From a virus, in IMG/VR virus record IMGVR_UViG_3300044799_000410, positions 1-59,895 of that record: DNA of 59,895 nt. The stretch is one strand, 5' to 3'. The position numbers and the translations under genes were made by a program. The notes below the pieces were generated by a model. That model worked only from the letters and a program-made list of their open reading frames with translations, ran no database searches and was not told the DNA's origin. Numbering within the stretch: the stretch's first letter is position 1; the number at the start of each line of letters is the position of its first letter. Positions 2,071 to 49,633 of the stretch are shown here, piece by piece.

Positions 2071-2079
2071 GAGAACAAA

Positions 2080-3090: not shown

Positions 3091-3094
3091 AAGT

Positions 3095-3307
3095 ATGTCT
3101 GACCGTAGAGTTACTCAAGTTCTTACGGATGTTGAATATGCTACTCCTACCAACGTCAGACAAGCTACACAAGTGTTGGCGATGGTAGAATATAAAACTC
3201 CTACCAATTTCCGACAGATTACTCAAGTGCTGATTCAAGTTGAGTACTCCCGGCCATACTTTTCCACTACCCTCCGAAAACTCGGGCCTCCTGCGCAAAC
3301 TGTTTAG
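3095..3307 (+). CDS. Small protein of three tandem repeats
   Basis: A 70-residue protein with no function I recognise. About the first 55 residues are three copies of a unit of about 19 residues with the pattern R-x-x-T/A-Q-V-L-x-x-V-E-Y-x-T/R-P. Repeats are conserved at the protein level, which argues for a real gene. It sits 4 bases after the lectin-like gene and within the tail-fibre/lysis operon; a virion role, perhaps beta-strand addition to a fibre, is possible but is inference. Confidence 0.6.
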   Translation: MSDRRVTQVLTDVEYATPTNVRQATQVLAMVEYKTPTNFRQITQVLIQVEYSRPYFSTTLRKLGPPAQTV

Positions 3308-3327
3308 AAATCGCTATAAGATAAACA

Positions 3328-4125
3328 ATGAAGATTACCAACGAAGGCATAAAGAGATTTATGCAGGCAGTCCGTGCCGAAATAGAATGCCACCGGAGGA
3401 CGGTCAATTTGTGGTTCCTGGCCAGTTTGATCGCCCTGATCGCGGTTTTGCTGATTGGCTCACTGCAATTGCGCGTTGCCAGTTTGCGGTTCCAGCCAGT
3501 TCCGGTCGTGGATTACCAAGCAACAATGAACCGGGAAGGCGTGTTAACTGCCGCCCCACAGATAGCAGAGACACTGCGAGCGGAATATAAAACCTCTACA
3601 CCCACATCAACACTTAGTCCTACCATCACGCCAACTCTGGTATCCACTGCCCCCGTCTCTGATGGATATTTCTGGCATGGCAAGTATTGGATCCCTGGTG
3701 TGATGTCCTACAAAACTTTGCGTTTATCAATGCCGGATTTAACAATTGGGATAGCGGTTTCTTATGCTCCCGGTGTGATGGAGGAAGTTGCACGTAACAC
3801 AGGCCGCCTCTACGACGGATATGCGGGGGCTGTGGCTTTGGAGTTATGCGCCGATGTTGAAGATTCGGTCTGGCTTCGACGTCCTGGGCATGATTGGGAA
3901 GGGCCGTTTCTGGTGATTGACTGCGCCAGACCCGAAGATCTATACGGCAATATAGTCTACGATGGAATTGTAGTAGAAGTAGACTACAATACAGCAGTCC
4001 GATGGGATTCTCTTATCACTCTCGGGATAGTGGTGTCCAAATTGCCACCGGGACAGATTGCTGGAGAACCAAGAGATTTCAGGCTGTGGTTCTTGCAGCA
4101 CGTGGAGTTTGAGGAGCAGCCATGA
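3328..4125 (+). CDS. Membrane-anchored double-psi beta-barrel-like protein
   Basis: 265 residues. A hydrophobic segment near residues 26-46, preceded by basic residues, looks like a single membrane anchor. A Ser/Thr/Pro-rich linker follows near 88-110, then a compact C-terminal domain whose pattern (G-V-M-E-x-V-A-R-N, D-G-Y-A-G, P-G-H-D-W-E-G-P-F-L-V, V-E-V-D-Y-x-T-A) resembles RlpA/DPBB-like domains. It overlaps the lysin gene by ATGA and starts the lysis block, so a role in envelope disruption, anchoring or spanin-like function is plausible. No ribosome-binding site is obvious before ATG 3328. Confidence 0.55.
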   Translation: MKITNEGIKRFMQAVRAEIECHRRTVNLWFLASLIALIAVLLIGSLQLRVASLRFQPVPVVDYQATMNREGVLTAAPQIAETLRAEYKTSTPTSTLSPTITPTLVSTAPVSDGYFWHGKYWIPGVMSYKTLRLSMPDLTIGIAVSYAPGVMEEVARNTGRLYDGYAGAVALELCADVEDSVWLRRPGHDWEGPFLVIDCARPEDLYGNIVYDGIVVEVDYNTAVRWDSLITLGIVVSKLPPGQIAGEPRDFRLWFLQHVEFEEQP

Positions 4126-6557: not shown

Positions 6558-6946
6558 TTTTTTCCCCTTCTTTCCGGTGAAATTTCTGCCGTTCTTTTCT
6601 GAAAGGCGTTCAATGATTGTCCTTGGGGATCTGGAAGTGATTCGAAGGCCTCCTTATATCTCTGCCAGCCAGTTTCGGTGATAAACCAGGGATTGAGCCA
6701 ATCCACGCAACGTATTTTATGATCCTTCGCCATTTGGTAGGCTATTTCTGGAGGCCAATCATAGGGCGGACCTCCAAAAACCGTCATGATACAAGGTGGC
6801 AATTTGTCTGAGAATTGTTCCAGCAACAGTCTCTTCTTGGTCGGGAGACTGGCCACCAATTGCCGCATCTCATACGCCCAGGCATACCAATTCCCTCGAA
6901 TGCGTTCCAGTTCTGCCTTGTCATGAATTATTCTGAGTCGAGGCAT
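6554..6946 (-). CDS. Hypothetical protein
   Basis: 130 residues, last gene of the long - strand operon. Trp-, Pro- and Arg-rich with no motif I recognise; residues about 1-45 are likely helical. It overlaps the 3' end of the preceding gene by 26 bases and its stop overlaps that of the convergent nuclease gene. Soluble, no signal peptide or membrane segment. Confidence 0.6.
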   Translation of the reverse strand: MPRLRIIHDKAELERIRGNWYAWAYEMRQLVASLPTKKRLLLEQFSDKLPPCIMTVFGGPPYDWPPEIAYQMAKDHKIRCVDWLNPWFITETGWQRYKEAFESLPDPQGQSLNAFQKRTAEISPERRGKN

Positions 6947-7397
6947 TTTTGATCCCAGTTATTTGTTTCGCCGCCAATTTTCCCATCCGGTTATAAGAGA
7001 GAGATTTAACCGGTTTGGTAATCTCGTGTGCCGCCAAAAATGCGACCACTTCATCCATCTGTCTTGGATCAAAATGCACCTGACGCCGTGATTGTGGCAC
7101 CTTCTGATGACAGGTCGGACAAATAGGAGAGAATCCTAAACGGATCCTGGTTGATCTTCTGGCTGGTTCGTAATTTTGATCAATAATTTTTTTCGCCAAT
7201 CCGGGAGATGGCGAACCATCCGGTCCAATAATCTTGGTTCTTTTGGCCACATCTTGCCATTTCAGTTTTAGGTCATAACGTAAATGCTGCCCTTCCGCAG
7301 CCCTTTTTGCAACTTCGGTTGATTGGAGTATGACCATAAAATTAGGTATTTTCGCAATTTTGGCGTTTTCAGGTAGTACGGGTCGCAATAATGACAT
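6921..7397 (-). CDS. Hypothetical protein with CPxCH zinc motif
   Basis: 158 residues. A central helical segment (L-K-W-Q-D-V-A-K-R-T...G-L-A-K-K-I-I) resembles a helix-turn-helix, followed by basic residues and a C-P-T-C-H motif near residue 104 that could be half a zinc site. The pattern recalls small phage DNA-binding proteins that combine an HTH with a short Cys motif. AAGGATAG precedes ATG 7397. DNA binding is inferred. Confidence 0.55.
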   Translation of the reverse strand: MSLLRPVLPENAKIAKIPNFMVILQSTEVAKRAAEGQHLRYDLKLKWQDVAKRTKIIGPDGSPSPGLAKKIIDQNYEPARRSTRIRLGFSPICPTCHQKVPQSRRQVHFDPRQMDEVVAFLAAHEITKPVKSLSYNRMGKLAAKQITGIKNASTQNNS

Positions 7398-7438
7398 GGG
7401 TCTATCCTTGACCTTTTACAAGTCGTAAAGAGGTATTT

Positions 7439-7837
7439 TTAAGGTCTCGTGGAATTTTGATGAGAAACTTTTTGGTCGATTTTAGCCTGTTTTTCCATTG
7501 TAATTTTCCGAATTTCGACAATTGAAAAAACATGGATCCATTTTCCCCATCCATCATCTTCAATGAAAATAGAAGGCGTCGGTGCCCAATAAGGCCAACC
7601 ATCATACATTCCGATCTTGATAACTTTTCCCCATCCAGATCTGGGAGACCCTCCATAATCAGTCGCTTCATATTTTCCTGGGCTCGCTTCGAGGATATGC
7701 AAGTATTCGATATTCCTGGCCAGGATTTTGGGATTCATTGATCCTCCATGATCCCAATCGTGGATTTGGAAATTGTAGGTCCAGTCGATTTTTCCCAGAT
7801 ATTCTCCGACCCGACAGACTTGCATATAAGTTTTCAT
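7439..7837 (-). CDS. Hypothetical protein
   Basis: 132 residues from ATG 7837, chosen because it makes an ATGA overlap with the upstream gene; an in-frame ATG at 7888 would overlap it by 55 bases. Rich in Trp, Tyr and Gly (D-W-D-H-G-G, G-W-G-K-V-I-K-I, G-W-P-Y-W-A-P) and predicted mostly beta. I do not recognise the family. Confidence 0.6.
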   Translation of the reverse strand: MKTYMQVCRVGEYLGKIDWTYNFQIHDWDHGGSMNPKILARNIEYLHILEASPGKYEATDYGGSPRSGWGKVIKIGMYDGWPYWAPTPSIFIEDDGWGKWIHVFSIVEIRKITMEKQAKIDQKVSHQNSTRP

Positions 7838-8259
7838 GGCTTTGCCTTTTCCGAAACGTCCGGTAAATCCGGGACCTTTTCTTCCCACACCTCCACCTCA
7901 TCTTCATATTCAGTGCCATCATAAGAGAATATCTCTTGATGGGGAACGAATCCTTTTGCTTCCAGAATGGCCTGCATCCTGGGAAGAGGTGTGGGGATGG
8001 CTATTCTGTAACCTTTCTCCTTGATAGCCCTGAATAAAGCCGACAAATTCCCTTGTCCCTGGTTAATAGAAATGATTGCAGAGATTAAGATCCGGTTTCC
8101 CTTCTTCCAGAGATAGGATCCAGGCAGATTAATATTATCGCTGCCGGCGAATTTATCGCTGGTAAATCCGATTGACTTACCGAAAGGACTATCCAATTTG
8201 ATCATCCCATTATTGAAGGAATGCCGGCCACGTGATGAAGTTCTAGTCATTTGTACCAA
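7834..8259 (-). CDS. GNAT-like acetyltransferase-fold protein
   Basis: 141 residues. Residues about 48-108 follow the GNAT core: a strand, then a Q-G-Q-G-N-L phosphate-loop-like turn, a helix, the strand R-I-A-I-P-T-P, a helix and a G-F-V ending. In GNAT enzymes the Q/R-x-x-G-x-G/A loop binds acetyl-CoA. The acidic C-terminal tail (D/E-rich) is extra. Two possible ATGs, 8259 and 8250; both overlap the upstream gene slightly. A role as protein or small-molecule acetyltransferase is inferred. Confidence 0.45.
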   Translation of the reverse strand: MVQMTRTSSRGRHSFNNGMIKLDSPFGKSIGFTSDKFAGSDNINLPGSYLWKKGNRILISAIISINQGQGNLSALFRAIKEKGYRIAIPTPLPRMQAILEAKGFVPHQEIFSYDGTEYEDEVEVWEEKVPDLPDVSEKAKP

Positions 8260-11797: not shown

Positions 11798-12898
11798 TCA
11801 AAAGAGGGTCGTCTGGATATTAGGAGATAACCACATACATTCTATGGTCGGCTTTGCATGTCCTGCTCGACTGCTCCTCGAGACAAAGCGCCAATCCTTA
11901 TATAACATCAAATAGAGATCTGATGAATAACCGCTGATGATGGCCATCCCCATAATATTATGCAGGGCATCGGCCAGCCTCACATGATCTTCTTCTGTTA
12001 TCTCATTCCGGTATTTGACACTCGAAGAACTGCGCGTTTTGATCAGGTAGGGAGGATCTGCATAGAATAATGTTGTGGATTTGTCAAAGTCACGGATGAG
12101 ATCGATGGCAGGTCTTTGTTCAATCGTCACTCCCTGCATTCGTTTTGAAAAGGCAGCAATATTTTCCGAGAAGTTCATCCAATCATTTGCGCCGGTGACT
12201 CCACTCTGGCTATTGCGCCTTATTCGGAAACCGGCGTGGGCTCTGGTGATCCCGTCGGATCCATGGCTGGCGAATGATCGGAAAATGATTCGTCTGGAGT
12301 TCTCTATCGGGTCCGGGCTGACTTCATAGGCCAAATCAAATTCTTTCCTGGAATAAGGTGTCAGAGCCAATAGTCTGGCTAATTCTGCGGCCTGCTGTGG
12401 GTCCCGCAGAACACGAAATACATCGCAAATCTCACCGTCAATATCATTATAAACCTCACCTTGTGAACGTGGTTTTGCCATGAGAACACTGCCGGCACCA
12501 CCATAAAGGTCTACGAAAAGCTGGTGAGCCGGAAAATGGGAAACAACCCAACGGCGGATGGCAAACTTTCCACCGGGGTAACGCATTATCGGACGCTTGA
12601 TCTTGGAAGTCTCTCCGTTTTTAGAACGGCATAATTTCTTCTTGAGCTGATTCTCATTTTCTTGGAATCGTTCAGTAATAATACGTTTTCCTATTTTGAT
12701 GCAATGACGACATTCCAGATATTCACTGATGATGTCATTGCCGCACCATTGGAAAACTGCCTGGGAAGATATTCTGGCCCCGCACATAGATCGTCCATCC
12801 ATGTGAAGATGCACAGGACCGCCTCGTTTTTCACCTGGAACGCCATAATAACCCGTGAAAATCTTGTTCCACTTTGCTATCTTGAATTGTGTTGTCAT
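11798..12898 (-). CDS. Adenine DNA methyltransferase (D12/Dam class) with zinc-ribbon N-terminus
   Basis: 366 residues from ATG 12898 (GGAG eight bases upstream, right after the C5 methyltransferase stop). Residues about 100 onwards are a D12-class N6-adenine methyltransferase: R-Y-P-G-G-K at the SAM site, D-L-Y-G-G-A-G-S, N-D-I-D-G-E, and the catalytic D-P-P-Y motif. D12 enzymes transfer methyl from S-adenosylmethionine to adenine N6. The first ~95 residues are an extra domain with Cys pairs (C-G-A-R and C-R-H-C) likely to bind zinc. Probably protects phage DNA from restriction. Confidence 0.85.
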   Translation of the reverse strand: MTTQFKIAKWNKIFTGYYGVPGEKRGGPVHLHMDGRSMCGARISSQAVFQWCGNDIISEYLECRHCIKIGKRIITERFQENENQLKKKLCRSKNGETSKIKRPIMRYPGGKFAIRRWVVSHFPAHQLFVDLYGGAGSVLMAKPRSQGEVYNDIDGEICDVFRVLRDPQQAAELARLLALTPYSRKEFDLAYEVSPDPIENSRRIIFRSFASHGSDGITRAHAGFRIRRNSQSGVTGANDWMNFSENIAAFSKRMQGVTIEQRPAIDLIRDFDKSTTLFYADPPYLIKTRSSSSVKYRNEITEEDHVRLADALHNIMGMAIISGYSSDLYLMLYKDWRFVSRSSRAGHAKPTIECMWLSPNIQTTLF

Positions 12899-12911
12899 CT
12901 GATTGCTCCGA

Positions 12912-13775
12912 TCAAAACATCTGTTCCTGTATAAGATCATCTGGGACGTTCTCCTCTTTGATGGCTGTTCGCATATCGCTGCGCTTCCTTCCTTTGACCA
13001 TTGCCCCACAGCCGGCACTGGTCAGCAGAGTGCGTTTCAGCATATCCGCGTCGCCAAAATTACCCTTTTCCAACATCTGGACAAATACGTCGAGTACGGG
13101 TAGGCCCTCAGGTGTAAGCATGTTGATTATACCGGGGACGTTTTCAAAGATTATTGTCCTGGGTTGAATTTCCAGCACGAGTCGGGCAAACTCGAATACC
13201 AGACTATTACGGGGATCCATCACATTGCGTTTACCAGCCATACTGAAACCCTGGCAGGGCGGTGAACCCATCACCACGTCAATCTCACCGACCTTCTTTC
13301 CGACTTCTTCCAGGATGCGTTTCCCGGTCAACTTGCGCACGTCGCCGACGATAAAAACGCCTACACCAGGCATGTCGGGATGACCCCGAATCCAGCCGCC
13401 CCCGGTGGTAAAGGCATGGCTGATCGTTTTCTTCTTGTCGTCTACCTTCATCTGTTTGCGCAGTTCCTTCTCCATTCTGGCTTTATCATCTGGCTCCAGA
13501 AATACAAAACGCATTGGGTAGGCACCGAGATTATGAGTATATGTGATTGCGGCAATTACATCATTATCCACGCCTGCCAGGATTTGAATCCCAGATTGCA
13601 TAGATCCCAAACTAAATCCGCCACAACCCGCAAATAGATCAATGCCTACCGGCCTGGGTTTGGGGATGGCGCTTTTGGGAATCAATATGCCATCTTTTAT
13701 TACCCAGTCAGAGGATGAAAATGTACCTTTAGTTTCTTGCTCCACTGGCAAGCGCAGGATAGGAGATATTAGCAT
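12912..13775 (-). CDS. C5-cytosine DNA methyltransferase, short form
   Basis: 287 residues. Motif I (D-L-F-A-G-C-G-G, about 46-53), motif IV with catalytic Cys174 (S-P-P-C-Q-G-F-S) and motif VI (F-E-N-V-P-G, 210-215) are intact. Only about 72 residues follow motif VI, where complete enzymes have the target-recognition domain and motifs VIII-X including the G-N-S/Q-x-x segment. It therefore looks truncated or split; no other open reading frame nearby supplies the missing part. It is followed closely by the D12 methyltransferase. Whether it is active is unclear. Confidence 0.75.
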   Translation of the reverse strand: MLISPILRLPVEQETKGTFSSSDWVIKDGILIPKSAIPKPRPVGIDLFAGCGGFSLGSMQSGIQILAGVDNDVIAAITYTHNLGAYPMRFVFLEPDDKARMEKELRKQMKVDDKKKTISHAFTTGGGWIRGHPDMPGVGVFIVGDVRKLTGKRILEEVGKKVGEIDVVMGSPPCQGFSMAGKRNVMDPRNSLVFEFARLVLEIQPRTIIFENVPGIINMLTPEGLPVLDVFVQMLEKGNFGDADMLKRTLLTSAGCGAMVKGRKRSDMRTAIKEENVPDDLIQEQMF

Positions 13776-36513: not shown

Positions 36514-37002
36514 CTATGAAATGCCATGGTTGAGATTCGAACATTCTTTCCAAAATTTTTCGCATCGTTCAATATGTGCTTCTGAAAATCTGTATCGAGT
36601 AAATTCCATTTCTTTTCCCCATCTGTTACGCATTTTTGTTTTCACGGCCACTTTTTCTGGATTGTTTCTCATCTCTCTAAACGCCATCACTTTTTTGGCA
36701 ACAGGACTTTTTATTCTGAGATATGGAAGAAGAATTGTAAGGATTTTCACGGCTTTCTTATCGGATGCCTGATAGCAAAAAAGAGGACGACCCTTGTGAG
36801 AATGAGATTTCTCGGCATAATAATTTCCGCCAAGATTCTCTGCGATGAACTTTATCGCCGATTCGTCTACCATCCGAATTTGTATACGTTCTTGGTAGGT
36901 TGGATTAACTCGACCATTCTTGAGGGTTGTTATACGTTTTATGCCAATATAACTTTCACCATCAACAATTCCAGCGATGTAAGCTAATTCGATTTCATTC
37001 AT
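36514..37002 (-). CDS. LAGLIDADG homing endonuclease, single-motif
   Basis: 162 residues from ATG 37002. Y-I-A-G-I-V-D-G-E-S-Y-I-G-I is the LAGLIDADG motif with catalytic Asp and the next strand; one motif means it acts as a homodimer. Antisense to its neighbours and next to a DNA methyltransferase. AT-rich. A free-standing mobile endonuclease. Confidence 0.8.
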   Translation of the reverse strand: MNEIELAYIAGIVDGESYIGIKRITTLKNGRVNPTYQERIQIRMVDESAIKFIAENLGGNYYAEKSHSHKGRPLFCYQASDKKAVKILTILLPYLRIKSPVAKKVMAFREMRNNPEKVAVKTKMRNRWGKEMEFTRYRFSEAHIERCEKFWKECSNLNHGIS

Positions 37003-37039
37003 AACAAACACCCATACAGTGAGATATAGTCATTATATC

Positions 37040-38047
37040 ATGAGTACCATAATAATCAGATCAAATGCTCTGAAAATACCAATAATGGATTGTTCGATTC
37101 AAAGTTGTATAACATCCCCTCCGTATTGGGGATTGAGATCATACGGCATAGGAATCGATAATGGCGAGTTGGGTATGGAACCAACGCCGCAGGAATATAT
37201 ATCTCACCTAGTGGAGGTATTTCGAGAAGTTCGACGAATTCTAAAAGACAATGGCACTCTTTGGCTCAATATCGGTGATAGTTATGCTGGATCTGGCGGG
37301 GCTGGAGATTGGTCCAGACGCAAGGCCGGTAAATACGCATACGCTGGACAACGTCCCAATGTAAATCGTGTCATTTCCAAAAAGAATTCAATGGGTGGTT
37401 TGAAACCAAAAGACATGGTGGGGATTCCATGGATGTTGGCCTTCGCGCTCCGCGACGATGGTTGGTATTTGCGTTCAGATATTATCTGGTACAAAACCAA
37501 TCCGAACCCCGAATCGGTAGAAGATAGACCAATAAAATCACATGAGTATGTGTTCTTGTTGTCTAAAACGCGGCGTTATTATTATGACAAGGATGCTGTG
37601 AAAGAACCCCATCAGGATAAGGCCGGACCTCCCGACCGTTTCAAAGGGCAGAGTGGAGTCAGTCGCGAAGAATATGAGGAAAGAAAATGGACAGATCGTA
37701 GTGATGGCCTGGCACGTCCACCGATGACCATGAAAAATCGCCAATATAACCCTCTCGGTCGTGACCTTCGTACCGTTTGGATTATTCCAACCCACCCATA
37801 TAGAGGCGCGCACTTTGCGACCTATCCCGAAGAGTTGGCCAGACGTTGCATTCTGGCCGGTAGTAAAATGGGAGATACAGTCTTAGATCCTTTCAATGGA
37901 GCCGGAACCACCGGTGTAGTGGCAATCAAATATGGCCGCAATTATATTGGTTGTGATCTCAATCCAGATTATATTCAGATGACCAAACGCCGATTTGCAA
38001 AGGTCCAGATCATTTTGCCGTTGCCAACTCCTGAGGTGAAGGAATGA
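37040..38047 (+). CDS. Site-specific DNA methyltransferase (SPPYW class)
   Basis: 335 residues from ATG 37040. S-P-P-Y-W-G-L-R (26-33, motif IV) and late D-P-F-N-G-A-G-T-T-G (motif I) define a beta-class enzyme; S-P-P-Y is typical of N4-cytosine methyltransferases. A central region with K-T-R-R-Y-Y-Y-D is typical of this subgroup. No ribosome site. Overlaps the large terminase start by 4 bases. Confidence 0.85.
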   Translation: MSTIIIRSNALKIPIMDCSIQSCITSPPYWGLRSYGIGIDNGELGMEPTPQEYISHLVEVFREVRRILKDNGTLWLNIGDSYAGSGGAGDWSRRKAGKYAYAGQRPNVNRVISKKNSMGGLKPKDMVGIPWMLAFALRDDGWYLRSDIIWYKTNPNPESVEDRPIKSHEYVFLLSKTRRYYYDKDAVKEPHQDKAGPPDRFKGQSGVSREEYEERKWTDRSDGLARPPMTMKNRQYNPLGRDLRTVWIIPTHPYRGAHFATYPEELARRCILAGSKMGDTVLDPFNGAGTTGVVAIKYGRNYIGCDLNPDYIQMTKRRFAKVQIILPLPTPEVKE

Positions 38048-39478: not shown

Positions 39479-40948
39479 ATGAAAAAAACTGATAGTAATG
39501 CCAGTACCAAAGTCAAGACCAATGCCAAGGTTGAAACTAAAAAGCAACCTTCTCTAAAATCAACTATGAATAAAGAGCAAATGGCTCTTTTTCAAAATGC
39601 ATCTCTGGTAAGTCGAGCGATGTTGGCTTCCAGATTAGGGCAACAATTCAATGGGGATAGAAACTTATACGATTCATTTGGATATGAAAGAAATCCAAAT
39701 TATGATATTTATCGGACTTTCTTCGACCGGATGGGATTGGCCACCCGGTGCGTGGAAATCTTTCCTGATGATACCTGGAGAAAACCACCCATCCTTGTGG
39801 ATGGAAAGGAACGTTCAGATACACCCAAGGATTCGGCATTCTTGAAAGGATGGCAGGAATTAGCCGACAAACTAAAGATTTGGCAAATATTTCGCCAAGT
39901 CGATGTGATGTGCGGCCTGGGGAAGTTTGCGGTTCTATTTTTGGGGGCACCTGGAAATTATGATACGCCTGCCAATGATAGCGCACTGGCTTTCTTGTCC
40001 GCCTATGATGAAAGCCAGGTTGCAATTTCTTCTTGGGTCAGACAGAATACCGATCCCCATTACGGAATGCCAGAAAAATACTCGATCAAATTCCAGGACT
40101 TTGATGAGGGTACGGTAGAATCCAAATTTGTTCACTATACACGTGTGATTCATGTTTCCGAGAACCGTTTAGGGTCACGTGTTTATGGCCGACCGAGATT
40201 GCAAACTGTTCTAAATAGATTATTTGATTTTGAGAAGGTGACCGGAGGAGCCGCAGAAGCCGCCTGGTTGAGTCTATTCAAAGGAATTATCATCTCTGCA
40301 AAAGAAGGGGCAGAAATGCCTGCTGAGGGTTCTCCAGAAATGGCCAACCTTGAAGCCGAGATGACCGCCTTTGCAAACCGAATGCAAAGATACCTAAGAC
40401 TCACCGCTGCGGACGTGAAAGATTTGGGGACCGATACAATTACCGTGCGCGATACTTACGACGTGTTGGCGGATGATCTGGCTGCCAGCCTGGGAATTCC
40501 TAAACGAATCCTATACGGATCTGAGCGTGGTGAATTGGCCTCTACTCAGGATCTGCGCCAATGGGCTGGAAGGATTACCTCTCGTCAGACGAACTTCGCT
40601 GAACCGGAAATCTTGAGACCATTCATATATTGGTGCATTATACATAAAATTCTTCCACCGCCAACCTCTGGACATGTTGACATCCATTGGCCAGAACTTT
40701 ATGAGTTGACAATGGGAGAAAAAGCTAAAATTGCCTTGGATGTGGGTGATGGGGCGTTCCGTGCTACAAATGGTGCCCCGGAGTTGGTTATCAGTCCAGA
40801 TGAATGGAGATCAATTATCGGATTGCCTCCACGATCAGAAGAAACGATAGCTGGCACAGAGATTCTGCCCACTCCCACCGGAACAGTAGGAAATCGACCG
40901 GGAAAAGACGAAACAGATGGCACCGTCGAAGCCAAACCCAAAGTATGA
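39479..40948 (+). CDS. Portal protein (DUF1073-like)
   Basis: 489 residues. A Lys/Thr-rich start, then D-R-M-G-L-A-T-R-C-V-E-I-F-P-D-D-T-W-R-K and G-R-P-R-L-Q-T-V-L-N-R-L-F-D-F-E-K, then the stem-like L-A-S-T-Q-D-L-R-Q-W fit DUF1073 portal proteins. It forms the ring at the head vertex for DNA entry. Normal length and position after TerL. Confidence 0.8.
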   Translation: MKKTDSNASTKVKTNAKVETKKQPSLKSTMNKEQMALFQNASLVSRAMLASRLGQQFNGDRNLYDSFGYERNPNYDIYRTFFDRMGLATRCVEIFPDDTWRKPPILVDGKERSDTPKDSAFLKGWQELADKLKIWQIFRQVDVMCGLGKFAVLFLGAPGNYDTPANDSALAFLSAYDESQVAISSWVRQNTDPHYGMPEKYSIKFQDFDEGTVESKFVHYTRVIHVSENRLGSRVYGRPRLQTVLNRLFDFEKVTGGAAEAAWLSLFKGIIISAKEGAEMPAEGSPEMANLEAEMTAFANRMQRYLRLTAADVKDLGTDTITVRDTYDVLADDLAASLGIPKRILYGSERGELASTQDLRQWAGRITSRQTNFAEPEILRPFIYWCIIHKILPPPTSGHVDIHWPELYELTMGEKAKIALDVGDGAFRATNGAPELVISPDEWRSIIGLPPRSEETIAGTEILPTPTGTVGNRPGKDETDGTVEAKPKV

Positions 40949-41720
40949 TTTGATATCTTCGGGTGAATCACCCACCACGCCATCACGCGACCAGGAAAGA
41001 AGGCCGTTACCATTGGCGAGGCCGCGTCGAAATAATCTAATTGCCCAGGGAGGAATCGTCACGGTACTATCACGTGACCAACTTGAGAATTGGTTGATCA
41101 CCCTCAGTGATGAAGAAAGACGGTCACTCAGGATACTTTGGGAGAAATACGTCCCCACAACCGGAACATTTGATCTATACCGTTTTACCAACGGAATACG
41201 AAATGAAATGCGCGAGCTCATGCAGAGATACATCACCAAACAGATCTCTTTGCAGGAATGGTATGACGAGTCTCGCCGTCTAATGAAACTCTCCTATATG
41301 GTAGCCATCGAAAAACAGGAAGAACCGGTCAATACAGAAATGATCCTGCTGGTCATCCTGGCTTTTTTCCTTTATCTGAACTCGACTGCGATTGGCATCA
41401 TGATGGGGACGACCGAAATCAATGGGAAACTTCTCACTCGTGCAAGCATGTACGGGGCAGCAATTTGGCCGATACAACACAATTACACTCTCACAGCAAG
41501 ACTTGCTCAGGCGTATGAATGTCGCCGAGTACTAGGACCAAACGAAAATCACTGTTATGCCGGCGAAAGACCGGGATGTATAGAACTGGCTCAGATGGGT
41601 TGGCTGCCGATAAGACAAATGTTGCCTCTAGGTTCTGCGCAATGCTTATCGAATTGCAGGTGTGATCTTCAATATCGAAAAACCCCGCCGATTACACTTT
41701 TATCTACACCAGAAGAATAG
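40917..41720 (+). CDS. MuF-like minor head protein
   Basis: 267 residues. The C-terminal ~70 residues (N-E-N-H-C-Y-A-G-E-R-P-G-C, G-W-L-P-I-R, G-S-A-Q-C-L-S-N-C-R-C-D) are the Cys-rich end of phage Mu gpF-like head morphogenesis proteins. A hydrophobic segment near 142-160 is present. The N-terminus is Pro/Arg-rich and overlaps the portal end by 32 bases. Confidence 0.75.
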   Translation: MAPSKPNPKYDLISSGESPTTPSRDQERRPLPLARPRRNNLIAQGGIVTVLSRDQLENWLITLSDEERRSLRILWEKYVPTTGTFDLYRFTNGIRNEMRELMQRYITKQISLQEWYDESRRLMKLSYMVAIEKQEEPVNTEMILLVILAFFLYLNSTAIGIMMGTTEINGKLLTRASMYGAAIWPIQHNYTLTARLAQAYECRRVLGPNENHCYAGERPGCIELAQMGWLPIRQMLPLGSAQCLSNCRCDLQYRKTPPITLLSTPEE

Positions 41721-41734
41721 AAAGGAAAATGATA

Positions 41735-42103
41735 ATGTCTTCAAAAAATGATCCGATGAAACTTAATAACATTGAGATCAAAATAGGCGAATGATTGGTT
41801 TATGTGACCAATATAAAGGATGCACCAGGATTTTCAGATATTCCATTTTCATTTCAGGCGACTATTCATAGAGTGATTTTTACGTCACGGGTCGCTAAAA
41901 GATATAGACTCGCTCTTGAGAGTACCCAAGATGGATTTTTGGGATTTGGATACGATCAGATAATCGGTTTAGGATATGGAGATTCTGTCAGGGAGTCGCT
42001 TAATAATTTGTCTGATGCGGTCGGACGATCAAAAACCCCCGATAAAACTACAGTTCTATTAGCCATTTCAAACGTTCTCGATCTTCTGGCAAATGAAACT
42101 TGA
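41735..42103 (+). pseudogene. Small gene interrupted by in-frame TGA
   Basis: ATG 41735 has AAAGGA upstream and opens a frame of 19 codons ending I-K-I-G-E, TGA (41792-41794), then continues in the same frame for 102 codons (L-V-Y-V-T-N-I-K-D-A-P...) to 42103. The downstream part could also start at TTG 41795. Reading TGA as Trp would give one sensible protein of 122 residues, so a one-base nonsense change (TGG to TGA), readthrough, or a short leader peptide are possible. Product not recognised. It overlaps the next gene by 11 bases. Confidence 0.55.
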
Positions 42104-43799
42104 TTTTTTTGCTACCCAAAAACATTACCTTGATCACCTCAAGAGCATTTGGGAGACTTTCCCTGCACGTAATCGTTTTTGGGTATCGCAGGAAATAGCC
42201 GAATATGCCGAAAAGGTATTGGGAGAAGTTTTTATCGGCCAACCTAAAGGAATCCGACCGGTTCTGGTAAGTTGTTATGGGGATATGGTTTCGATCATAA
42301 GAGATTCCCCGGAAGCAAAAGTTATTCTAATGGAACATGGTATTGGAATGACTTACGGAACGGCTGCCTACGCTGATGGTTATGGAAGGCGGGCGGCAGT
42401 TTCGATGTTCTTACTCCAGAGCCAATATGTGGCCAAGAAAATGGATTCGCGCCTGACGGCCCCCCGGTCCGTGATCGGGATCCCAAAATTGGATCCTTGG
42501 GTCGGAGAATTCAACCGGCCACATCCCATGCCCCAGCAACCAGTCCTGGGTCTGTCTTTTCACCATTCAAATTACTCGAACGTGCCAGAGGCACAAAATG
42601 CCTGGGAAATCTATGTAAAGATCCTACCAAAGTTAGCGAAAAAATATCACGTGATTGGGCATGGACATCCCCTCGAATTGAACAATTTCCGTCCGGTTTA
42701 TGAGAAAAACGGGATTGAATTCGTTGACAATTTTGAAGAAGTTATGAGGCGGGCAGATATATTGTTATTTGATTGCACATCCGCTGGATTTGAGTATCTT
42801 GTCACGGGTAAACCAGTCATCATTCTGAATTCCCCAAAATTCAGGAGAGACAAACAATGGGGAATCCGTTTTTGGGATTATTCTAATATTGGTCCAATGG
42901 TTGAAGGACCAGAGGAGTTATTGAAAACCATTGAAATGGTTATTCTGGACCCGGATAGATATAAGGAGCAACGCAAGAATGCAATTAAAAATCTCATCCC
43001 ATATATTGGAACATCTACACAAAAAGCGACAAAAGTTTTGATGGGTTTTTTGGCGATCATTCCTGACCCCGAACCAAAAATCAACATCTTAGATTGCAAC
43101 GACAGCGGGATTATTTATATATGTTTTGGGGAAAAGGCCAAAATGCAAGTATTGCAGAGCATCGTCTCGATGCGAGAACTTGGAATGAATTATCCGATCT
43201 GTGTCGTTGGAGATAGATATATTGATGGGACCTATCTCATTGAGTGGGATGGAGAGAATCCGTATGATAAATCCAGACCCAAGGGATTGCGATTTCTTGC
43301 CGGGAGAATAAAACCCTCTCTATATAAACTATCGCCCTTCAAAAAAACTCTTTATATCGATGCGGACACAAGATTTAGACAAAACATCCTTCCTGGTTTT
43401 GAATTTCTGAAAATATACGATATGGCAATGGCAGAAGAAAGGCAGACGTTAAGAGATTTGCATAACCCGGAAAGACATTCCGACTTTTTATGGTATCACG
43501 ATCCGGTCGAGGTAGAAGAAAGTATCAAAGAACTTGGGGATCCATCCATGGTATTTATGAACTCCGGGGTAATTTTCTTCCGAAAAAGCAGAAGATGCGA
43601 GAAACTATTTGAAGATTGGAAAACGGAGTGGTTGAGATACCAACAATGGGATGAGCAGATGGCATTATTGAGGGCGGCAAAGAGGAATTCAAATATAAAG
43701 ATCAAAAACCTTCCGGTTTCATGGAACTGTCCCTATGACAAGACGGATATTTTTATCTATCATCAATATGCAAGATGCTCCGCGAGGGAAAATGTCTAA
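42093..43799 (+). CDS. Two-domain glycosyltransferase (CDP-glycerol transferase-like + GT8-like)
   Basis: 568 residues. Residues about 1-310 resemble CDP-glycerol:poly(glycerophosphate)-type GT-B enzymes (M-E-H-G-I-G-M, V-I-G-H-G-H-P, F-E-Y-L-V-T-G-K-P-V-I). Residues about 330-568 form a GT-A domain with D-x-D at 423-425 (L-Y-I-D-A-D) and a late F-M-N-S-G-V-I-F-F, like GT8. First gene of the glycan cassette. It could build or modify a polyol-phosphate or sugar chain on virion or host. Specificity unknown. Confidence 0.7.
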   Translation: MKLDFFATQKHYLDHLKSIWETFPARNRFWVSQEIAEYAEKVLGEVFIGQPKGIRPVLVSCYGDMVSIIRDSPEAKVILMEHGIGMTYGTAAYADGYGRRAAVSMFLLQSQYVAKKMDSRLTAPRSVIGIPKLDPWVGEFNRPHPMPQQPVLGLSFHHSNYSNVPEAQNAWEIYVKILPKLAKKYHVIGHGHPLELNNFRPVYEKNGIEFVDNFEEVMRRADILLFDCTSAGFEYLVTGKPVIILNSPKFRRDKQWGIRFWDYSNIGPMVEGPEELLKTIEMVILDPDRYKEQRKNAIKNLIPYIGTSTQKATKVLMGFLAIIPDPEPKINILDCNDSGIIYICFGEKAKMQVLQSIVSMRELGMNYPICVVGDRYIDGTYLIEWDGENPYDKSRPKGLRFLAGRIKPSLYKLSPFKKTLYIDADTRFRQNILPGFEFLKIYDMAMAEERQTLRDLHNPERHSDFLWYHDPVEVEESIKELGDPSMVFMNSGVIFFRKSRRCEKLFEDWKTEWLRYQQWDEQMALLRAAKRNSNIKIKNLPVSWNCPYDKTDIFIYHQYARCSARENV

Positions 43800-44424
43800 C
43801 GAACTTGTAAATGATACCCTGATTCTCCAACACGTTTTTGGTAAACACGGAAGAATTATCGCGATGACAGTCCCACGAACCATTGAATATTGTCTCCAAC
43901 ATCATATTGACTATCAAATGGTTCTTTCGGATGTGGTAAGAGATGGAAATCATGTCCATTGGGCTCACACCTATTTGATACGCGATGCGATGATAAGAGG
44001 ATACAAAAACATCATTTATTGGGACGCGGATACCCTGATTGCCGACATGGGTATGGATATTAAAGAGGCAATTGTGGAAGATAAGATCGGTTCGGTATGG
44101 CACAACTTAAAAAAAGAGGACAAGGATCTCAGCCATTTCAATGTTGGAGCACTCTATTTTTCAAATACTCCTAAGACGCGAGAATTTATGGATAGATGGA
44201 TTGCCGGTTACCCTGGGACTTCCTGGTCTAGTTTTCCTCTTGTATTCGAGCAGGGAGTTTTTAATATTATTGGAGAGGAAATGGGAATAATCAACCGGCT
44301 TGATAATAAATGGAATGCGGAATGCGGAGTAAGTCCAAGCGATCATCCAGCAGTGTTTGGTTTTCATGGATTCCCCGATCTGTATAATAATATGAAGAAA
44401 AAACTGGAAAATTTGAATGATTGA
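43792..44424 (+). CDS. GT-A glycosyltransferase
   Basis: 210 residues from ATG 43792 (8-base overlap with the previous gene). I-I-Y-W-D-A-D-T-L with D-x-D at 78-80 and F-N-V-G-A-L-Y-F-S match nucleotide-sugar transferases of the GMA12/GT8-like type. Cytosolic, no membrane segment. Likely acts with the preceding enzyme. Confidence 0.7.
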   Translation: MSNELVNDTLILQHVFGKHGRIIAMTVPRTIEYCLQHHIDYQMVLSDVVRDGNHVHWAHTYLIRDAMIRGYKNIIYWDADTLIADMGMDIKEAIVEDKIGSVWHNLKKEDKDLSHFNVGALYFSNTPKTREFMDRWIAGYPGTSWSSFPLVFEQGVFNIIGEEMGIINRLDNKWNAECGVSPSDHPAVFGFHGFPDLYNNMKKKLENLND

Positions 44425-44998
44425 TGAATTGAAAGGTCTTTATCCAGGAGAAAAAATTTATATCGTTGGGAAAGGACCCAGTCTGGAATATCTCGATTCG
44501 TCTTATTTTGGGGTGGGTCCAATCATTACGATAAATGAATCGATATTATTGGTGCAGGAGTTCGGACTACAGAATCCTATTTACGCCATAAGAAAAGACC
44601 CGTGTTCAAGGGGAATTGGTTTAGGTCATGCCTGTCCGTTCATCTGTCCGCATAAAGATATTGTGCTTATTCTCCAATCCAACTGGTCAGAATGGTGTTT
44701 CCCAGAACACGAGAAGCGCGTTGTGGTCGATCCGGTCTTAGAATTGGGACTTAAATCTCAGAATGAAATGAGTATATTAATGTGTTTTGAGATAGCCAAA
44801 AGGATGGGTTGTGTTAAGTTCGGTTTTGTGTGTTGCGATTCTTTCATTGACGATAATAGAGTCTACGACATGCTATCCAGACAATCTATAGCTGATAGGC
44901 GATCTGGTTATTATGAATATGCAAGAAATAAATTATTGCCTTTATTAATCAATATTCCTCATGAGTTTATAATCCCGAAAGAATATGATGACAACTAG
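44417..44998 (+). CDS. DUF115/GT42-like protein
   Basis: 193 residues. Y-I-V-G-K-G-P-S-L-E-Y-L near residue 14 and I-T-I-N-E-S-I are the G-x-G-P-S-L/T-x-N-x pattern of DUF115 (motility-accessory-type) and sialyltransferase-like GT42 proteins that add nonulosonic or related sugars. Later C-C-D-S-F fits the second nucleotide-binding half. Overlaps both neighbours slightly. Confidence 0.55.
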   Translation: MIDELKGLYPGEKIYIVGKGPSLEYLDSSYFGVGPIITINESILLVQEFGLQNPIYAIRKDPCSRGIGLGHACPFICPHKDIVLILQSNWSEWCFPEHEKRVVVDPVLELGLKSQNEMSILMCFEIAKRMGCVKFGFVCCDSFIDDNRVYDMLSRQSIADRRSGYYEYARNKLLPLLINIPHEFIIPKEYDDN

Positions 44999-45530
44999 AC
45001 TAACCTTAATCCGGGACATAGCACACATCAATTCCCGGATAAAGACCAATGAAATGTTATTACTATATGATCTTGCATCGAAGGTCCCGGAGGGCGGAGA
45101 GATTGTCGAAATTGGTTCATGTTATGGGGCCTCGTCAGCCTGTCTTGGATTGGGATCACAAGATAAGGCGCGCATGACGCTAATTGATAATTTTATTCAT
45201 CATCCGGCAGGCAAGGCATCAGCGATATTGCTGGATAGCAATCTAAAAAGTGTCGGCCTGCGCAATTTTACGATCTTTAAGGTTGATTGCATGATTTTGA
45301 AGAATTGGCCACGATCGATCGATCTACTCCATATTGACGGCGCACACGATTATGATCATGTCTGGCACGATCTAACCATACTGGGATCACGTGCTCGAAC
45401 CGTCATCTGTCATGACTATACTGCCATCCCCGACGTGATGCGGGCGGTAAGTCAATTTCTGGTCGACTTTCCTTATAAAATTGATCGCATTGCGGAGACG
45501 ACGATCATTTTGCGAAGGACATTCCAATGA
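44985..45530 (+). CDS. SAM-dependent methyltransferase (Methyltransf_24-like)
   Basis: 181 residues. I-V-E-I-G-S-C-Y-G-A-S-S (SAM motif I), then L-I-D-N-F and L-L-H-I-D-G-A-H-D-Y are typical of the sugar/lipid O-methyltransferases of class 24. Position in the glycan cassette suggests a sugar substrate. ATGA overlap with the next gene. Confidence 0.7.
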   Translation: MMTTRLTLIRDIAHINSRIKTNEMLLLYDLASKVPEGGEIVEIGSCYGASSACLGLGSQDKARMTLIDNFIHHPAGKASAILLDSNLKSVGLRNFTIFKVDCMILKNWPRSIDLLHIDGAHDYDHVWHDLTILGSRARTVICHDYTAIPDVMRAVSQFLVDFPYKIDRIAETTIILRRTFQ

Positions 45531-46123
45531 CAGATCCACGAGTAGCCGAGTATGATGCTTATTACACCAGGAACCCCAATCAATGGAAGGATAATAGGCG
45601 CAACTCATTCGCGTTTGAGATTCTGGAAAACTACCTCGAACATCCTCCGAAAACATTCCTGGATGTTGGTTGCGGAAATGGCCACTCGGTCGAGTTTTTT
45701 GCAAAACGATGGCCCAAAACTCAATGCTGGGGATTGGACTTATCAGGTGTGGCAATAGAACTGGCGAAACGTAGATGTCCAGACTCTACGTTTATTTGTG
45801 TCTCCTTGGAAGAAGCGGTCTTGCCTAAATTTGATGTGGTAATGGTCCTAGGTGTCTTGGAACATTTTGAAGATTATGTTGGGATATTCGCTAAACTTCG
45901 TATGATCATGAATGGGATTTTATATGTTGAAGTTCCAAATTGTATTGCCTATCCATCAAGCGAAAAGATTGAGGGATTCCGTAGATTGAATCAAGGTAGC
46001 CATCAGATGGAGTGGCATTTGTATCGAGAAACCTGGGAGAAAAGACTAATCAGTGAATTCAAAATCATAAAGTCAATCATTGGTCCGAACATTTATTCTG
46101 AATTTATCTGGTTATTGAAATAA
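45527..46123 (+). CDS. SAM-dependent methyltransferase
   Basis: 198 residues. F-L-D-V-G-C-G-N-G-H-S motif I, G-L-D-L-S motif II, V-L-G-V-L-E-H-F-E motif, like class I small-molecule methyltransferases (25/23-like). Last gene of the cassette; could act on the same glycan. Confidence 0.75.
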   Translation: MTDPRVAEYDAYYTRNPNQWKDNRRNSFAFEILENYLEHPPKTFLDVGCGNGHSVEFFAKRWPKTQCWGLDLSGVAIELAKRRCPDSTFICVSLEEAVLPKFDVVMVLGVLEHFEDYVGIFAKLRMIMNGILYVEVPNCIAYPSSEKIEGFRRLNQGSHQMEWHLYRETWEKRLISEFKIIKSIIGPNIYSEFIWLLK

Positions 46124-46430: not shown

Positions 46431-46464
46431 AAAGCCCGCCTTTTCCGGTGGGTTTTCGTTTTTT
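46431..46464 (+). terminator. Terminator/attenuator before the protease gene
   Basis: About a 10-bp stem (46431-46440 with 46447-46456, G-U pairs included), then TTTTCGTTTTTT. It ends right before the AGGAG of the protease gene, so it could separate two operons or act as an attenuator. Confidence 0.65.
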
Positions 46465-46473
46465 AGGAGAGTT

Positions 46474-48171
46474 GTGCCATATCCATCAGAACATGCAGCA
46501 CGTGTAAAGAATCCTGACGATTTCGAGAAGGACTCTTTTCGTCGCAAGGATATTGCGCCCGGTATTGCCATCATTATTGGGAAAGAAAAGAATGGCAATG
46601 GTTCGATGGTTACTCAGGCTTATCGCTTTGAGAAAACCAAGTTTACCGAGGCCGAGGCTAAGAAATGGCTCGAGGATCATAAAGTTAAATATATATCTTT
46701 TGAGCCAGCCACTTCCAATGTGAATGAAAAATTGACGACCAATACAGCTCGAAAAGAGATCGAGAACGAAAAGGAATATCTGGTCGTGCCTGGTGTGATC
46801 CTCCAGGAACAAGTCATGAATGATTACTTCGTGCCTGAGGATGAGATTGTCAAGTCATACAAAGCCTGGAATGGCAGGCCGGTAGTGATTTACCATCCGA
46901 AGAAAAATGAAGGTTCAGCCAATGTCCCTCCCACAGAGAGAGATGTGGTCGAGATCGGACGTTTTTATAACGCTAAGTGGGACCAGACTACCAAACAAGT
47001 AACTGGTGAATACTGGATTGAAGTGGCCGAGGCTGACAAATTTATCGAGGGGAAAGATGTTTTGAATGCCATCCACGCGAATAAAATCCTTGAGACTTCG
47101 ACAGGATACTTCGCGTTCGAGGATATGACTGGTGGAACCTTCAAAGAACGCCCTTATAGACTCGTCCATCGCGATCTCCAACCCGATCATATTGCCATTC
47201 TCCCCGGTAAAGTCGGGGCATGTTCCATCAAGGACGGTTGTGGTTGTAATCGAAATGAGGTCACGGAGGATTGTATGACCAATTGTCCATTCATCGCAAA
47301 CGTTTTATCAACGGCTCGTCATCCCACCTATAGCGGGACCGAGACTACTTCATGGGATGGTGTCACCAAAACCATCGAAGCCTATGTCGCCGGTTATGAA
47401 AAGGCACATAAGGTAAAAGATGTTCCGAGGAAGGTGGCTGATCTGCCATCTGCCGTCAAAACCTGGATTGCCAGTAAGACATTGCTCGGTGATCCAAAGG
47501 CGGACAATGAACGAGATCTGACGATGTTTCCAGTGGTCAATCCTGGAACCGACAATTTGAATGCCGGAGCACTGCGCGCCGTTCTGAGTGGCCGAGGGTC
47601 TGCGGCCCAAATATCGGCGAGTGCCCGTGATAGCGCCCAGAATATGGCGCGCAATTTACTCGAAAAAGAATTCCACAAGGAGGCAGGCATGAAGAAAAAT
47701 GATTTTGTCCAGTGGCTCAAGGACAAACTTCACCTCGAGGTGAAGGTGAATGAAGCCACCGGCGAGCAGGAGGAAACCTTCGAGATTCTCAAGGAACCCT
47801 TGGCTGCTACTCCAACGCCGGCACAGTTCACCGAAAATGAAGCAACCGCCCTCAAGTCTTTGGCAGGATCTGCCACAGCAATCCTGGCTGCGCTCAAGGA
47901 TATTCCGAAGGCGATTGCACTTGCGCAAAATGCCGAGACCCAGGCGAATGCACGCAAGACCGAAATGGTGGCGCTTATCAAGGCTAACCAGTCAAACCAG
48001 TTGACCGAGGAAGAGTTGAAAACTCTTACCCTTCCGGTCCTGGAGAAGATGAACGCCCAACTCAATATTGACTACACGGGTGCAGGGGGTGCCGGCAGGG
48101 TCATCGAGAAGGGCAAGGGGCTTGAAGTCAAGCCCGTCCTTTTGGCTAAACCAGCAGGAGGTGCATCATGA
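46474..48171 (+). CDS. Prohead protease (DUF2213-like) fused to scaffold
   Basis: 565 residues from GTG 46474, with TAGGAG upstream. Residues about 100-260 match DUF2213: Y-L-V-V-P-G-V-I-L, F-V-P-E-D-E-I, P-V-V-I-Y-H-P, L-E-T-S-T-G-Y-F, P-D-H-I-A-I-L-P, G-A-C-S-I-K-D-G-C-G. This family acts in head maturation. The N-terminal 90 residues are a separate small domain and the C-terminal ~180 are helical, Ala/Glu-rich scaffold-like. Just before decoration and capsid genes. Confidence 0.75.
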   Translation: MPYPSEHAARVKNPDDFEKDSFRRKDIAPGIAIIIGKEKNGNGSMVTQAYRFEKTKFTEAEAKKWLEDHKVKYISFEPATSNVNEKLTTNTARKEIENEKEYLVVPGVILQEQVMNDYFVPEDEIVKSYKAWNGRPVVIYHPKKNEGSANVPPTERDVVEIGRFYNAKWDQTTKQVTGEYWIEVAEADKFIEGKDVLNAIHANKILETSTGYFAFEDMTGGTFKERPYRLVHRDLQPDHIAILPGKVGACSIKDGCGCNRNEVTEDCMTNCPFIANVLSTARHPTYSGTETTSWDGVTKTIEAYVAGYEKAHKVKDVPRKVADLPSAVKTWIASKTLLGDPKADNERDLTMFPVVNPGTDNLNAGALRAVLSGRGSAAQISASARDSAQNMARNLLEKEFHKEAGMKKNDFVQWLKDKLHLEVKVNEATGEQEETFEILKEPLAATPTPAQFTENEATALKSLAGSATAILAALKDIPKAIALAQNAETQANARKTEMVALIKANQSNQLTEEELKTLTLPVLEKMNAQLNIDYTGAGGAGRVIEKGKGLEVKPVLLAKPAGGAS

Positions 48172-48593
48172 GTAACACAATCCTGATTGGACCTGCCGGT
48201 ATCCGCAAGGAACGTAAACGCAGTACCGTCGTTGTCGAGCCAGGAATGCTTCTGGCATATACGACCGCCTTGGCGGTCCTGCCACACTCCAGCGCAGCGG
48301 GTATGGCAAAACCGATGATGGTGGCCATCGAGGAACCGGAGAATTCCGGCCGCGACATCGATGATGGTTACGATGTCACCGGTGAGATCGTTCAGTGCGA
48401 TTTCCCGCTTCCGGGCCAGGATCGTTATATGTGGCTGGCTGCTGGCGAAACTGCCAGCAAGGGCAGCGACCTCAATAGCGACGGGGCCGGCGCGCTGCAG
48501 GTTGGATCTACCAACAAAGTAGCCACGGCGCTTGAGGCGGTCAACAACAGCGCAGGTTATGTACCTGTCCGCATCAAAGTGGAGGTGTGCTGA
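48168..48593 (+). CDS. Head decoration-like protein
   Basis: 141 residues, GGAGG before ATG 48168. Beta-rich with V-V-V-E-P-G-M-L-L and a D-V-T-G-E-I-V segment like capsid decoration or DUF2190-type proteins. Position between scaffold and capsid genes supports this. Confidence 0.55.
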   Translation: MSNTILIGPAGIRKERKRSTVVVEPGMLLAYTTALAVLPHSSAAGMAKPMMVAIEEPENSGRDIDDGYDVTGEIVQCDFPLPGQDRYMWLAAGETASKGSDLNSDGAGALQVGSTNKVATALEAVNNSAGYVPVRIKVEVC

Positions 48594-49633
48594 TGAACAA
48601 CCAACTTATTCTCCAACAGGGTTACATGAACCAGGGTGACATCCTGGACGTGTCTGCCCTACGCCCTTTCATCAATAAGAAGGGTGAAGCGGTTGTCCAT
48701 AACGGCGAGCGCGAGCGCGTCGTTCACAACGCCCTCCTGCGGCAATACGAATGGGAAACCATTGACGCTGCTGTTTTGGACGTAATGCGCCAACCCATCG
48801 TTGGCATTGCCGACCTGATCGCGGCCGGTCTGACCCGTCCTCTGGGCGGCTTGGGAACACTCACCTCGACCTATGAGCAGTTGAAAGACATGGATGATGC
48901 CGAAGTCACCATGAATATCACTGCCCAGAATGCTAACAAGGACAAGGTGGGCTTCGAGCCTCAATCCATTCCCGTTCCGATCATTTCGAAACCTTTCGAG
49001 ATCGACATCCGTATGCTGGAAGCCTCCCGGAAGATGGGCGAGACCCTGGATGTGACCATGACCCGCGTGGCTACGATCAAGGTACGGGACGCCCTGGAAA
49101 CCATTTTGTTCAATGGTTCGAGCCTCGTGGTCGGAACCATGTCCATCTATGGATACACCACGGCTCCCCACATCGATACCAAGACCGCCGCTGTCTATGG
49201 CGGTGGAGATTTTGGTACGGACACCAACGGTCACAAGACCCTCGTCGGAATGATGGCGGCTCTGGTGGCCAAGGGCTTCAATGGTCCATTCGGTGTCTAT
49301 GTTTCCACCACCCAATATTCTCAGTTGCAGGCATTGACCGGGACAAACAAGTCCGAAACGCAGTTGAGCGTCATCCTGCGCACCCTGGGCACCGCTCAAG
49401 GCGGTACCCTGCAATTCGTCAAGCGCGGTCCGAAACTGGCCGATGGGAAAACCGTCATGGTCCAGTTGACTTCCGAGGTGGTCGATCTGGCCGTTGGCCA
49501 GGATGTTGCAGCCATCTCCTGGGCTGAGTTCGGCGGGATGCTGACGCAGTTCCGGGTTCTGACCGCGGCTGTTCCTCGCATCAAGTTCGATAGCAACAAC
49601 GCCTGCGGCGTCGCCGTCGCGACCGCTTGCTAA
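48593..49633 (+). CDS. Major capsid protein
   Basis: 346 residues from ATG 48593 (TGATG overlap). R-Q-Y-E-W-E-T-I-D-A-A-V near residue 50, a central D-I-R-M-L-E-A-S-R-K and C-terminal beta-rich half fit HK97-fold capsid proteins of the encapsulin/DUF6260-like group. Codons are more GC-rich than most of the genome, as is usual for highly expressed genes. Followed by a hairpin. Confidence 0.8.
   Translation: MNNQLILQQGYMNQGDILDVSALRPFINKKGEAVVHNGERERVVHNALLRQYEWETIDAAVLDVMRQPIVGIADLIAAGLTRPLGGLGTLTSTYEQLKDMDDAEVTMNITAQNANKDKVGFEPQSIPVPIISKPFEIDIRMLEASRKMGETLDVTMTRVATIKVRDALETILFNGSSLVVGTMSIYGYTTAPHIDTKTAAVYGGGDFGTDTNGHKTLVGMMAALVAKGFNGPFGVYVSTTQYSQLQALTGTNKSETQLSVILRTLGTAQGGTLQFVKRGPKLADGKTVMVQLTSEVVDLAVGQDVAAISWAEFGGMLTQFRVLTAAVPRIKFDSNNACGVAVATAC

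Follow-up and report, generated by a model that had tools for sequence, protein, structure and literature searches.

Gene content and order of the cassette

The linear virus record IMGVR_UViG_3300044799_000410, analysed here at its full length of 59,895 bases and called the window, was found to contain five consecutive genes for predicted glycan-modifying enzymes inside an operon of phage head genes (42093-46123). Sequence and fold identify between three and four glycosyltransferase (GT) domains and two S-adenosylmethionine (SAM) methyltransferases in this cassette. It is interpreted below as a phage-encoded cassette for virion glycosylation and O-methylation, cytosolic and acting most likely on the major capsid protein (MCP), a reading that is given a probability of roughly three in four on the basis of sequence comparison and predicted structures. 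An earlier note made from the sequence alone had described five genes overlapping end to end between MuF and protease genes, and an open reading frame (ORF) check found all five to be intact and co-directional at 42093-46123, with neighbours overlapping by 4-14 nt. The features of the region are as follows; related loci are denoted by L numbers.

39479..40948, + strand: portal gene (PF06381, 1.5e-27)
40917..41720, + strand: MuF-like head gene, upstream boundary (phrog_24776), 3' of the portal gene; homologues adjoin the portal gene in L138 and L151
41795..42103, + strand: small ORF between the MuF-like gene and GT1 (weak phrog_28115), with an 11-nt overlap with GT1
42093..43799, + strand: GT1, a TagF-like GT-B domain (about residues 1-322) fused to a GT8/GT77/glycogenin-like GT-A domain (about residues 337-568, DADT motif)
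43792..44424 (listed ORF from 43735), + strand: GT2, a GT34-like GT-A glycosyltransferase (PF05637)
44417..44998, + strand: D115, a small protein of predicted DUF115/Maf/sialyltransferase fold with a GKGPSL motif (weak PF01973; predicted structure)
44985..45530, + strand: MT1, a SAM methyltransferase, Methyltransf_24 (PF13578)
45527..46123, + strand: MT2, a SAM methyltransferase, Methyltransf_25/11 (PF13649/PF08241)
46431..46456, + strand: strong intrinsic-terminator-like hairpin with a T tail, 3' of the cassette and 5' of the protease ribosome-binding site (consensus scan only)
46474..48171, + strand: DUF2213 head maturation protease, downstream boundary (PF09979; phrog_530)
48587..49633, + strand: MCP, proposed main acceptor (45% identity to the gene after portal-MuF-protease in L083)

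The MuF gene that had been placed upstream of the cassette was recognised by position and motif only, a Pfam search of it giving no match, and the small ORF at 41795-42103 was found to intervene. At the other end, the hairpin at 46431-46456 could separate the protease and capsid genes from the cassette transcript. In L083, which contains related portal, protease and capsid genes, the MuF gene was found to be followed directly by the protease gene with no cassette between them; because of this arrangement the cassette is regarded as a module added to the head operon, and its GC content of 0.416, below that of both flanks (0.464 and 0.528), is cited in the same direction.

Enzymes of the cassette

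GT1 was found to match both PF04464 (Glyphos_transf, 8e-8; 32.0 bits against a curated cut-off of 22.1) and PF03407 (Nucleotid_trans, 2e-6), each over its cut-off, and by profile it also matched Cps3D (2.7e-6) and TarL. The AlphaFold2 (AF2) model of its 568 residues was found to contain two well-folded domains at a predicted local distance difference test (pLDDT) score of 87, and among solved structures Foldseek placed TagF first for the N-terminal half (E 1.2e-10), with glycogenin/UGGT-type enzymes as the best matches of the GT-A half. Since both families score over cut-off and the model shows two folded domains, GT1 is judged to be a genuine two-domain fusion, as the earlier note had supposed in calling it a fused CDP-glycerol transferase-like/GT8-like enzyme. 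The N-terminal TagF-like domain (GT1N) is assigned by profile and GT-B fold to the CDP-glycerol glycerophosphotransferase superfamily (PF04464), with a putative CDP-polyol donor; the GT-A C-terminal half is called GT1C.

GT2 was found to match PF05637 barely over the cut-off (1.8e-5), which agrees with the GT-A transferase proposed earlier, and its homologues adjoin GT1 in L122 and L125. The ATG at 43792, giving 210 aa, is a more likely start than the listed 43735 because of the homologue lengths and the 8-nt overlap with GT1.

D115 (193 aa) was found to match PF01973 below threshold (E 0.036; 14.3 bits against a curated cut-off of 34.6). Its AF2 model (pLDDT 91) was aligned by VIA-align with MptE/HPPK at Z 12.7 over 154 residues, with the Maf flagellin glycosyltransferase at Z 11.7 and with GT29/GT42 sialyltransferases at Z of about 8-10. 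The DUF115/GT42-like identity suggested beforehand was thus borne out by fold and only weakly by sequence. Relatives of D115 were found in viral contigs (33 in number). A search of the D115 profile against PDB sequences gave nitrogenase matches only, which were dismissed as chance.

MT1 and MT2 were assigned by Pfam to ordinary class I methyltransferase families, in keeping with the two methyltransferases read earlier from the sequence. An NCBIfam scan of the cassette gave generic methyltransferase matches for MT2, all under cut-off, and none for the other four proteins. In relatives, GT1C was found fused to MT2 (L116 and L132) and to MT1 (L149), and a three-part protein adjoining GT1N in L144 (5311-7434) was found to contain a GT11 fucosyltransferase, a GT7C-like domain and a methyltransferase. 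Such fusions of the two enzyme types, seen in several relatives, tie methylation to the glycan, and the methyl capping proposed earlier gains support. A related cassette in L097 was found to contain a sulfotransferase domain (PF00685) fused to a methyltransferase (PF13649) at 6761-7990, so that some relatives may sulfate their glycan.

Occurrence of the cassette in other genomes

Ordinary searches returned a single relative of GT1, Rctr41k_32, and a viral contig scan with the GT1 sequence alone or a two-sequence alignment gave no match. The GT1N family was recruited by a hand-made DNA pattern based on the invariant motif GIRFWDY, followed by a 12-member alignment, and was found in at least 115 viral contigs, a census that is incomplete and biased to members keeping the short conserved peptides used for recruitment. 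Outside viruses, three clear matches were found among 84,980 species genomes, one of which (L183) contained a capsid gene directly upstream, and plasmids gave one remote match; GT1N is rare outside viruses. A strictly viral distribution was considered and dropped, as L181 and L182 contained no recognised phage neighbours. The L182 homologue (358-3974) lies in an Acidobacteria contig near large proteins that resemble ATP-grasp enzymes by eye, and may represent a cellular branch of the family. A large T4-like phage (L162 from 7408; L086) was found to contain a TagF-like domain at the end of an 848-aa protein that starts with a GT2-like domain and adjoins genes resembling, by eye, capsid and prohead protease genes.

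Every ORF of the relative loci was labelled with profiles of the components. In L223 and L225, GT1N+GT1C, MT1, D115 and MT2 were found with a protease-capsid fusion on one side and an adaptor gene on the other, and L106 contained GT1, MT1, D115 and MT2 in the same position, the last found by a separate search. L097 and L121 contained the order GT1-D115-MT2-MT1 after MuF, and L107 contained D115 and MT1. Near-complete GT1-MT1-D115-MT2 sets were found in phages whose capsid, portal and terminase genes are unrelated to one another. Because counterparts of each of the five components are found in company again in other phages, the five-gene set is no chance grouping; the earlier note had proposed a search of relatives, and the cassette was found there to be widely conserved, the opposite of the lack of conservation that it had named as a refutation. 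GT1 and D115 gave no PHROGs match and GT2 no significant one, and GT2, D115 and GT1C gave no match in annotated phages. Without a PHROGs family at useful significance for GT1, GT2 and D115, the system is missed by standard phage annotation.

Association of GT1N with capsid genes

An MCP gene was found directly upstream of GT1N (within 200 bp, same strand) in 26 of 71 dereplicated loci, the window excluded, where about 1.05 would be expected by random placement in the same loci; these loci are related and not phylogenetically independent, and the two figures do not amount to a probability. The upstream MCPs were found to fall into three sequence families, and the GT1N tree required 19 changes of capsid type where the minimum possible is five. 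The number of changes points to a gene that was passed between phage lineages while keeping its place beside capsid genes. Within the tree, the window was found to group with L176, L138, L143, L144 and L151 (support 100/99). In L176, the closest relative by tree, a portal-like gene and the protease gene flank GT1 and MT1; in L138 and L151, GT1N lies between terminase and portal together with a GT11-methyltransferase protein.

Family F34, first read as a capsid protein, was found to be minor-tail-like and was excluded from the MCP counts. An Ig-like domain (phrog_807, 12 of 61 upstream genes), possibly a glycan-bearing surface domain, was found in the protease-capsid fusions upstream of GT1N in L107 (2986-5637) and its relatives.

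Proposed role and alternatives

The phage-encoded GTs share an operon with genes for structural proteins of the virion. The enzymes would be made together with the head genes and would modify structural proteins in the cytosol before particles are assembled or as they form, the main acceptor being most likely the MCP, with decoration or tail proteins possible too. The glycan would be started on Ser/Thr by a GT-A domain or by the Maf-like D115 and extended by the remaining GT-A domains, the TagF-like domain would draw on a nucleotide-activated donor of the host to add one more sugar or a polyol-phosphate unit, and MT1 and MT2 would O-methylate the product. The likely benefit would be a shielded or altered particle surface, giving protection, changed adsorption or escape from recognition.

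Four observations argue for glycosylation of the particle. The enzymes are predicted to be soluble, since no membrane segment was found in the cassette proteins by hydropathy (no 19-residue window above 1.53), and neither a flippase nor a lipid-linked transferase was recognised. The GT-methyltransferase fusions of L116, L132, L149 and L144 link methylation to a glycan. The F15 GT family, which accompanies GT1N in roughly a dozen head operons and was not found in the window, is homologous to the mycobacteriophage capsid-glycosylation proteins Firecracker gp35 (4e-18) and Che8 gp109 (2e-17). The Corndog-cluster analogue, described below, occupies the same portal-to-protease slot. Together with the conserved MCP adjacency, the lack of transmembrane segments and the F15 homology uphold the first of the two roles offered by the earlier note, virion glycosylation.

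The second role, late remodelling of host surface glycans, would have lipid-linked wall or O-antigen glycans altered in infection for superinfection exclusion or release. Membership of GT1N in one superfamily with the wall and capsule polymerases TagF, TarL and Cps3D would suit it, as would the late expression implied by a late operon, whereas the cassette was found by hydropathy and Pfam to contain no membrane protein, flippase or polyprenyl-phosphate transferase, the hallmarks of Gtr-type serotype conversion (membrane flippase, membrane-bound GT) were not found in its proteins, GT1N tracks the capsid gene across phage lineages, and the companion F15 family belongs to capsid-glycosylation loci. 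Nothing in the cassette was found to be specific to this role, and it is considered unlikely.

A third possibility is that the acceptor is a receptor-binding, tail or host protein and not the capsid. The minor-tail-like gene (phrog_290) found upstream of GT1N in L104 and L115 would fit it, and mycobacteriophages glycosylate the tail tube as well (PMC12363180); direct MCP adjacency is nevertheless the commonest arrangement, which leaves this alternative quite improbable. Least probable is glycosylation of modified bases of phage DNA, for which a CDP-glycerol glycerophosphotransferase in a cluster of Bacillus phage SP-15 proposed for a hypermodified base (PMC5977210) and the DNA methyltransferases of the window, one of C5 type, can be cited, whereas the cassette stands in head operons apart from replication and nucleotide genes, the thymidylate-synthase/hydroxymethylase family (PF00303) was absent from the window, possibly a genome fragment, and from 24 of 26 relatives. 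A search for TET/JBP oxygenases gave no match, but as the control genomes gave none either, it carries no information on their absence.

Several points weigh against virion glycosylation itself, besides the relatedness of the adjacency loci. Many GT1N loci contained no recognised adjoining MCP, partly on short contigs or with unrecognised MCPs, and the few relatives in cellular contigs (L181, L182) contained no recognised phage genes. D115 fits the pterin diphosphokinase fold as well as the Maf and sialyltransferase folds, and the late-operon position fits late action on another substrate too. Cellular TagF-like enzymes make wall polymers, and glycosylation in these phages is a prediction from their genes.

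A more specific form of the capsid reading, in which the TagF-like domain builds a teichoic-acid-like (polyol-phosphate-containing), methylated polymer directly on the capsid, is held to be doubtful. If true, phages would wear a wall-polymer-like coat made by a near-virus-confined enzyme family that accompanies the capsid genes of tailed phages unrelated to one another.

Other features of the window

D12 adenine-type and C5 cytosine-type DNA methyltransferase genes were found at 11798-13018 and 12912-13775, the start of the second overlapping the first. A DNA methyltransferase with an SPPY motif (37019-38047, read from the sequence only) stands directly before terL, and just before these two genes, on the opposite strand, a LAGLIDADG-like homing endonuclease frame was seen by eye (36514-37011, - strand).

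Comparison with known systems

A few mycobacteriophages have been shown to glycosylate their virions with enzymes of their own. In phages of the Corndog cluster, the genes between portal and protease encode three glycosyltransferases and an O-methyltransferase, and the scarcity of capsid peptides in proteomic data on the virion led to the proposal that the capsid is modified with glycans and methyl groups (PMC4351075). According to Freeman 2023, as cited in PMC12363180 and PMC11256854, Che8 and Corndog virions carry glycans, and Che8 gp110 and Corndog gp38 are essential, the latter for capsid glycosylation.

The cassettes of Corndog (gp35-38) and Firecracker (gp33-36), both of cluster O, share with the window the slot, the order portal-cassette-protease-capsid, an arrangement of overlapping genes (four in their case), a Methyltransf_24 O-methyltransferase (Firecracker gp33, of the Pfam family of MT1) and several small GTs. 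Their own GTs are GT25-like and GT2/GT7C-like, whereas those of the window are TagF-like, GT8-like, GT34-like and DUF115-like. The Che8 (cluster F1) genes gp108-110 contain a similar combination of GT and Methyltransf_24, with a GT-methyltransferase fusion in gp108 and the F15 homologue gp109; they differ in standing near the right end of the genome, outside the head operon, and in containing no homologue of the window enzymes. The six profiles of the window (GT1N, GT1C, GT2, D115, MT1, MT2) gave no match at E<=10 to Firecracker gp33-36 or Che8 gp108-110. Descent from the Corndog or Che8 cassette was not found: MT1 and gp33 share a Pfam family only, and other homology runs only through the F15 family of relatives. 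Judged from these comparisons, the cassette would function like that of Corndog yet is no homologous copy of it. The statement of the earlier note that no phage system with this exact set had been described stands for the exact enzymes and falls for the kind of system, given the Corndog-cluster slot (PMC4351075) and Firecracker.

TagF, TarL and Cps3D polymerases share the fold and the C-terminal motifs of GT1N, whereas they are cellular and membrane-associated and GT1N, a shorter protein located in phage head operons, has a GT-A domain fused to it. The Maf/MptE DUF115 family shares the fold and the GxGPSL motif of D115, which differs as a 193-aa single domain with a sequence match under threshold and as a putative catalyst. 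Rctr41k (KX853513), an uncultured virus of a methane-bioreactor/methane-oxidiser enrichment, contains a single-domain GT1N relative (43% identity), Rctr41k_32, annotated as hypothetical and located behind the protease-MCP and adaptor genes; no GT1C, D115 or methyltransferase was recognised in it, and its paper (PMC5099504) makes no mention of glycosylation. Against these systems, the distribution described here suggests that phage-encoded virion glycosylation is much commoner among uncultured tailed phages, where a different, modular set of enzymes tied to the capsid gene would carry it out, and the capsid-linked TagF-like GT, the Maf-like protein and the GT-methyltransferase fusions offer concrete targets for studying the glycans of phage particles.

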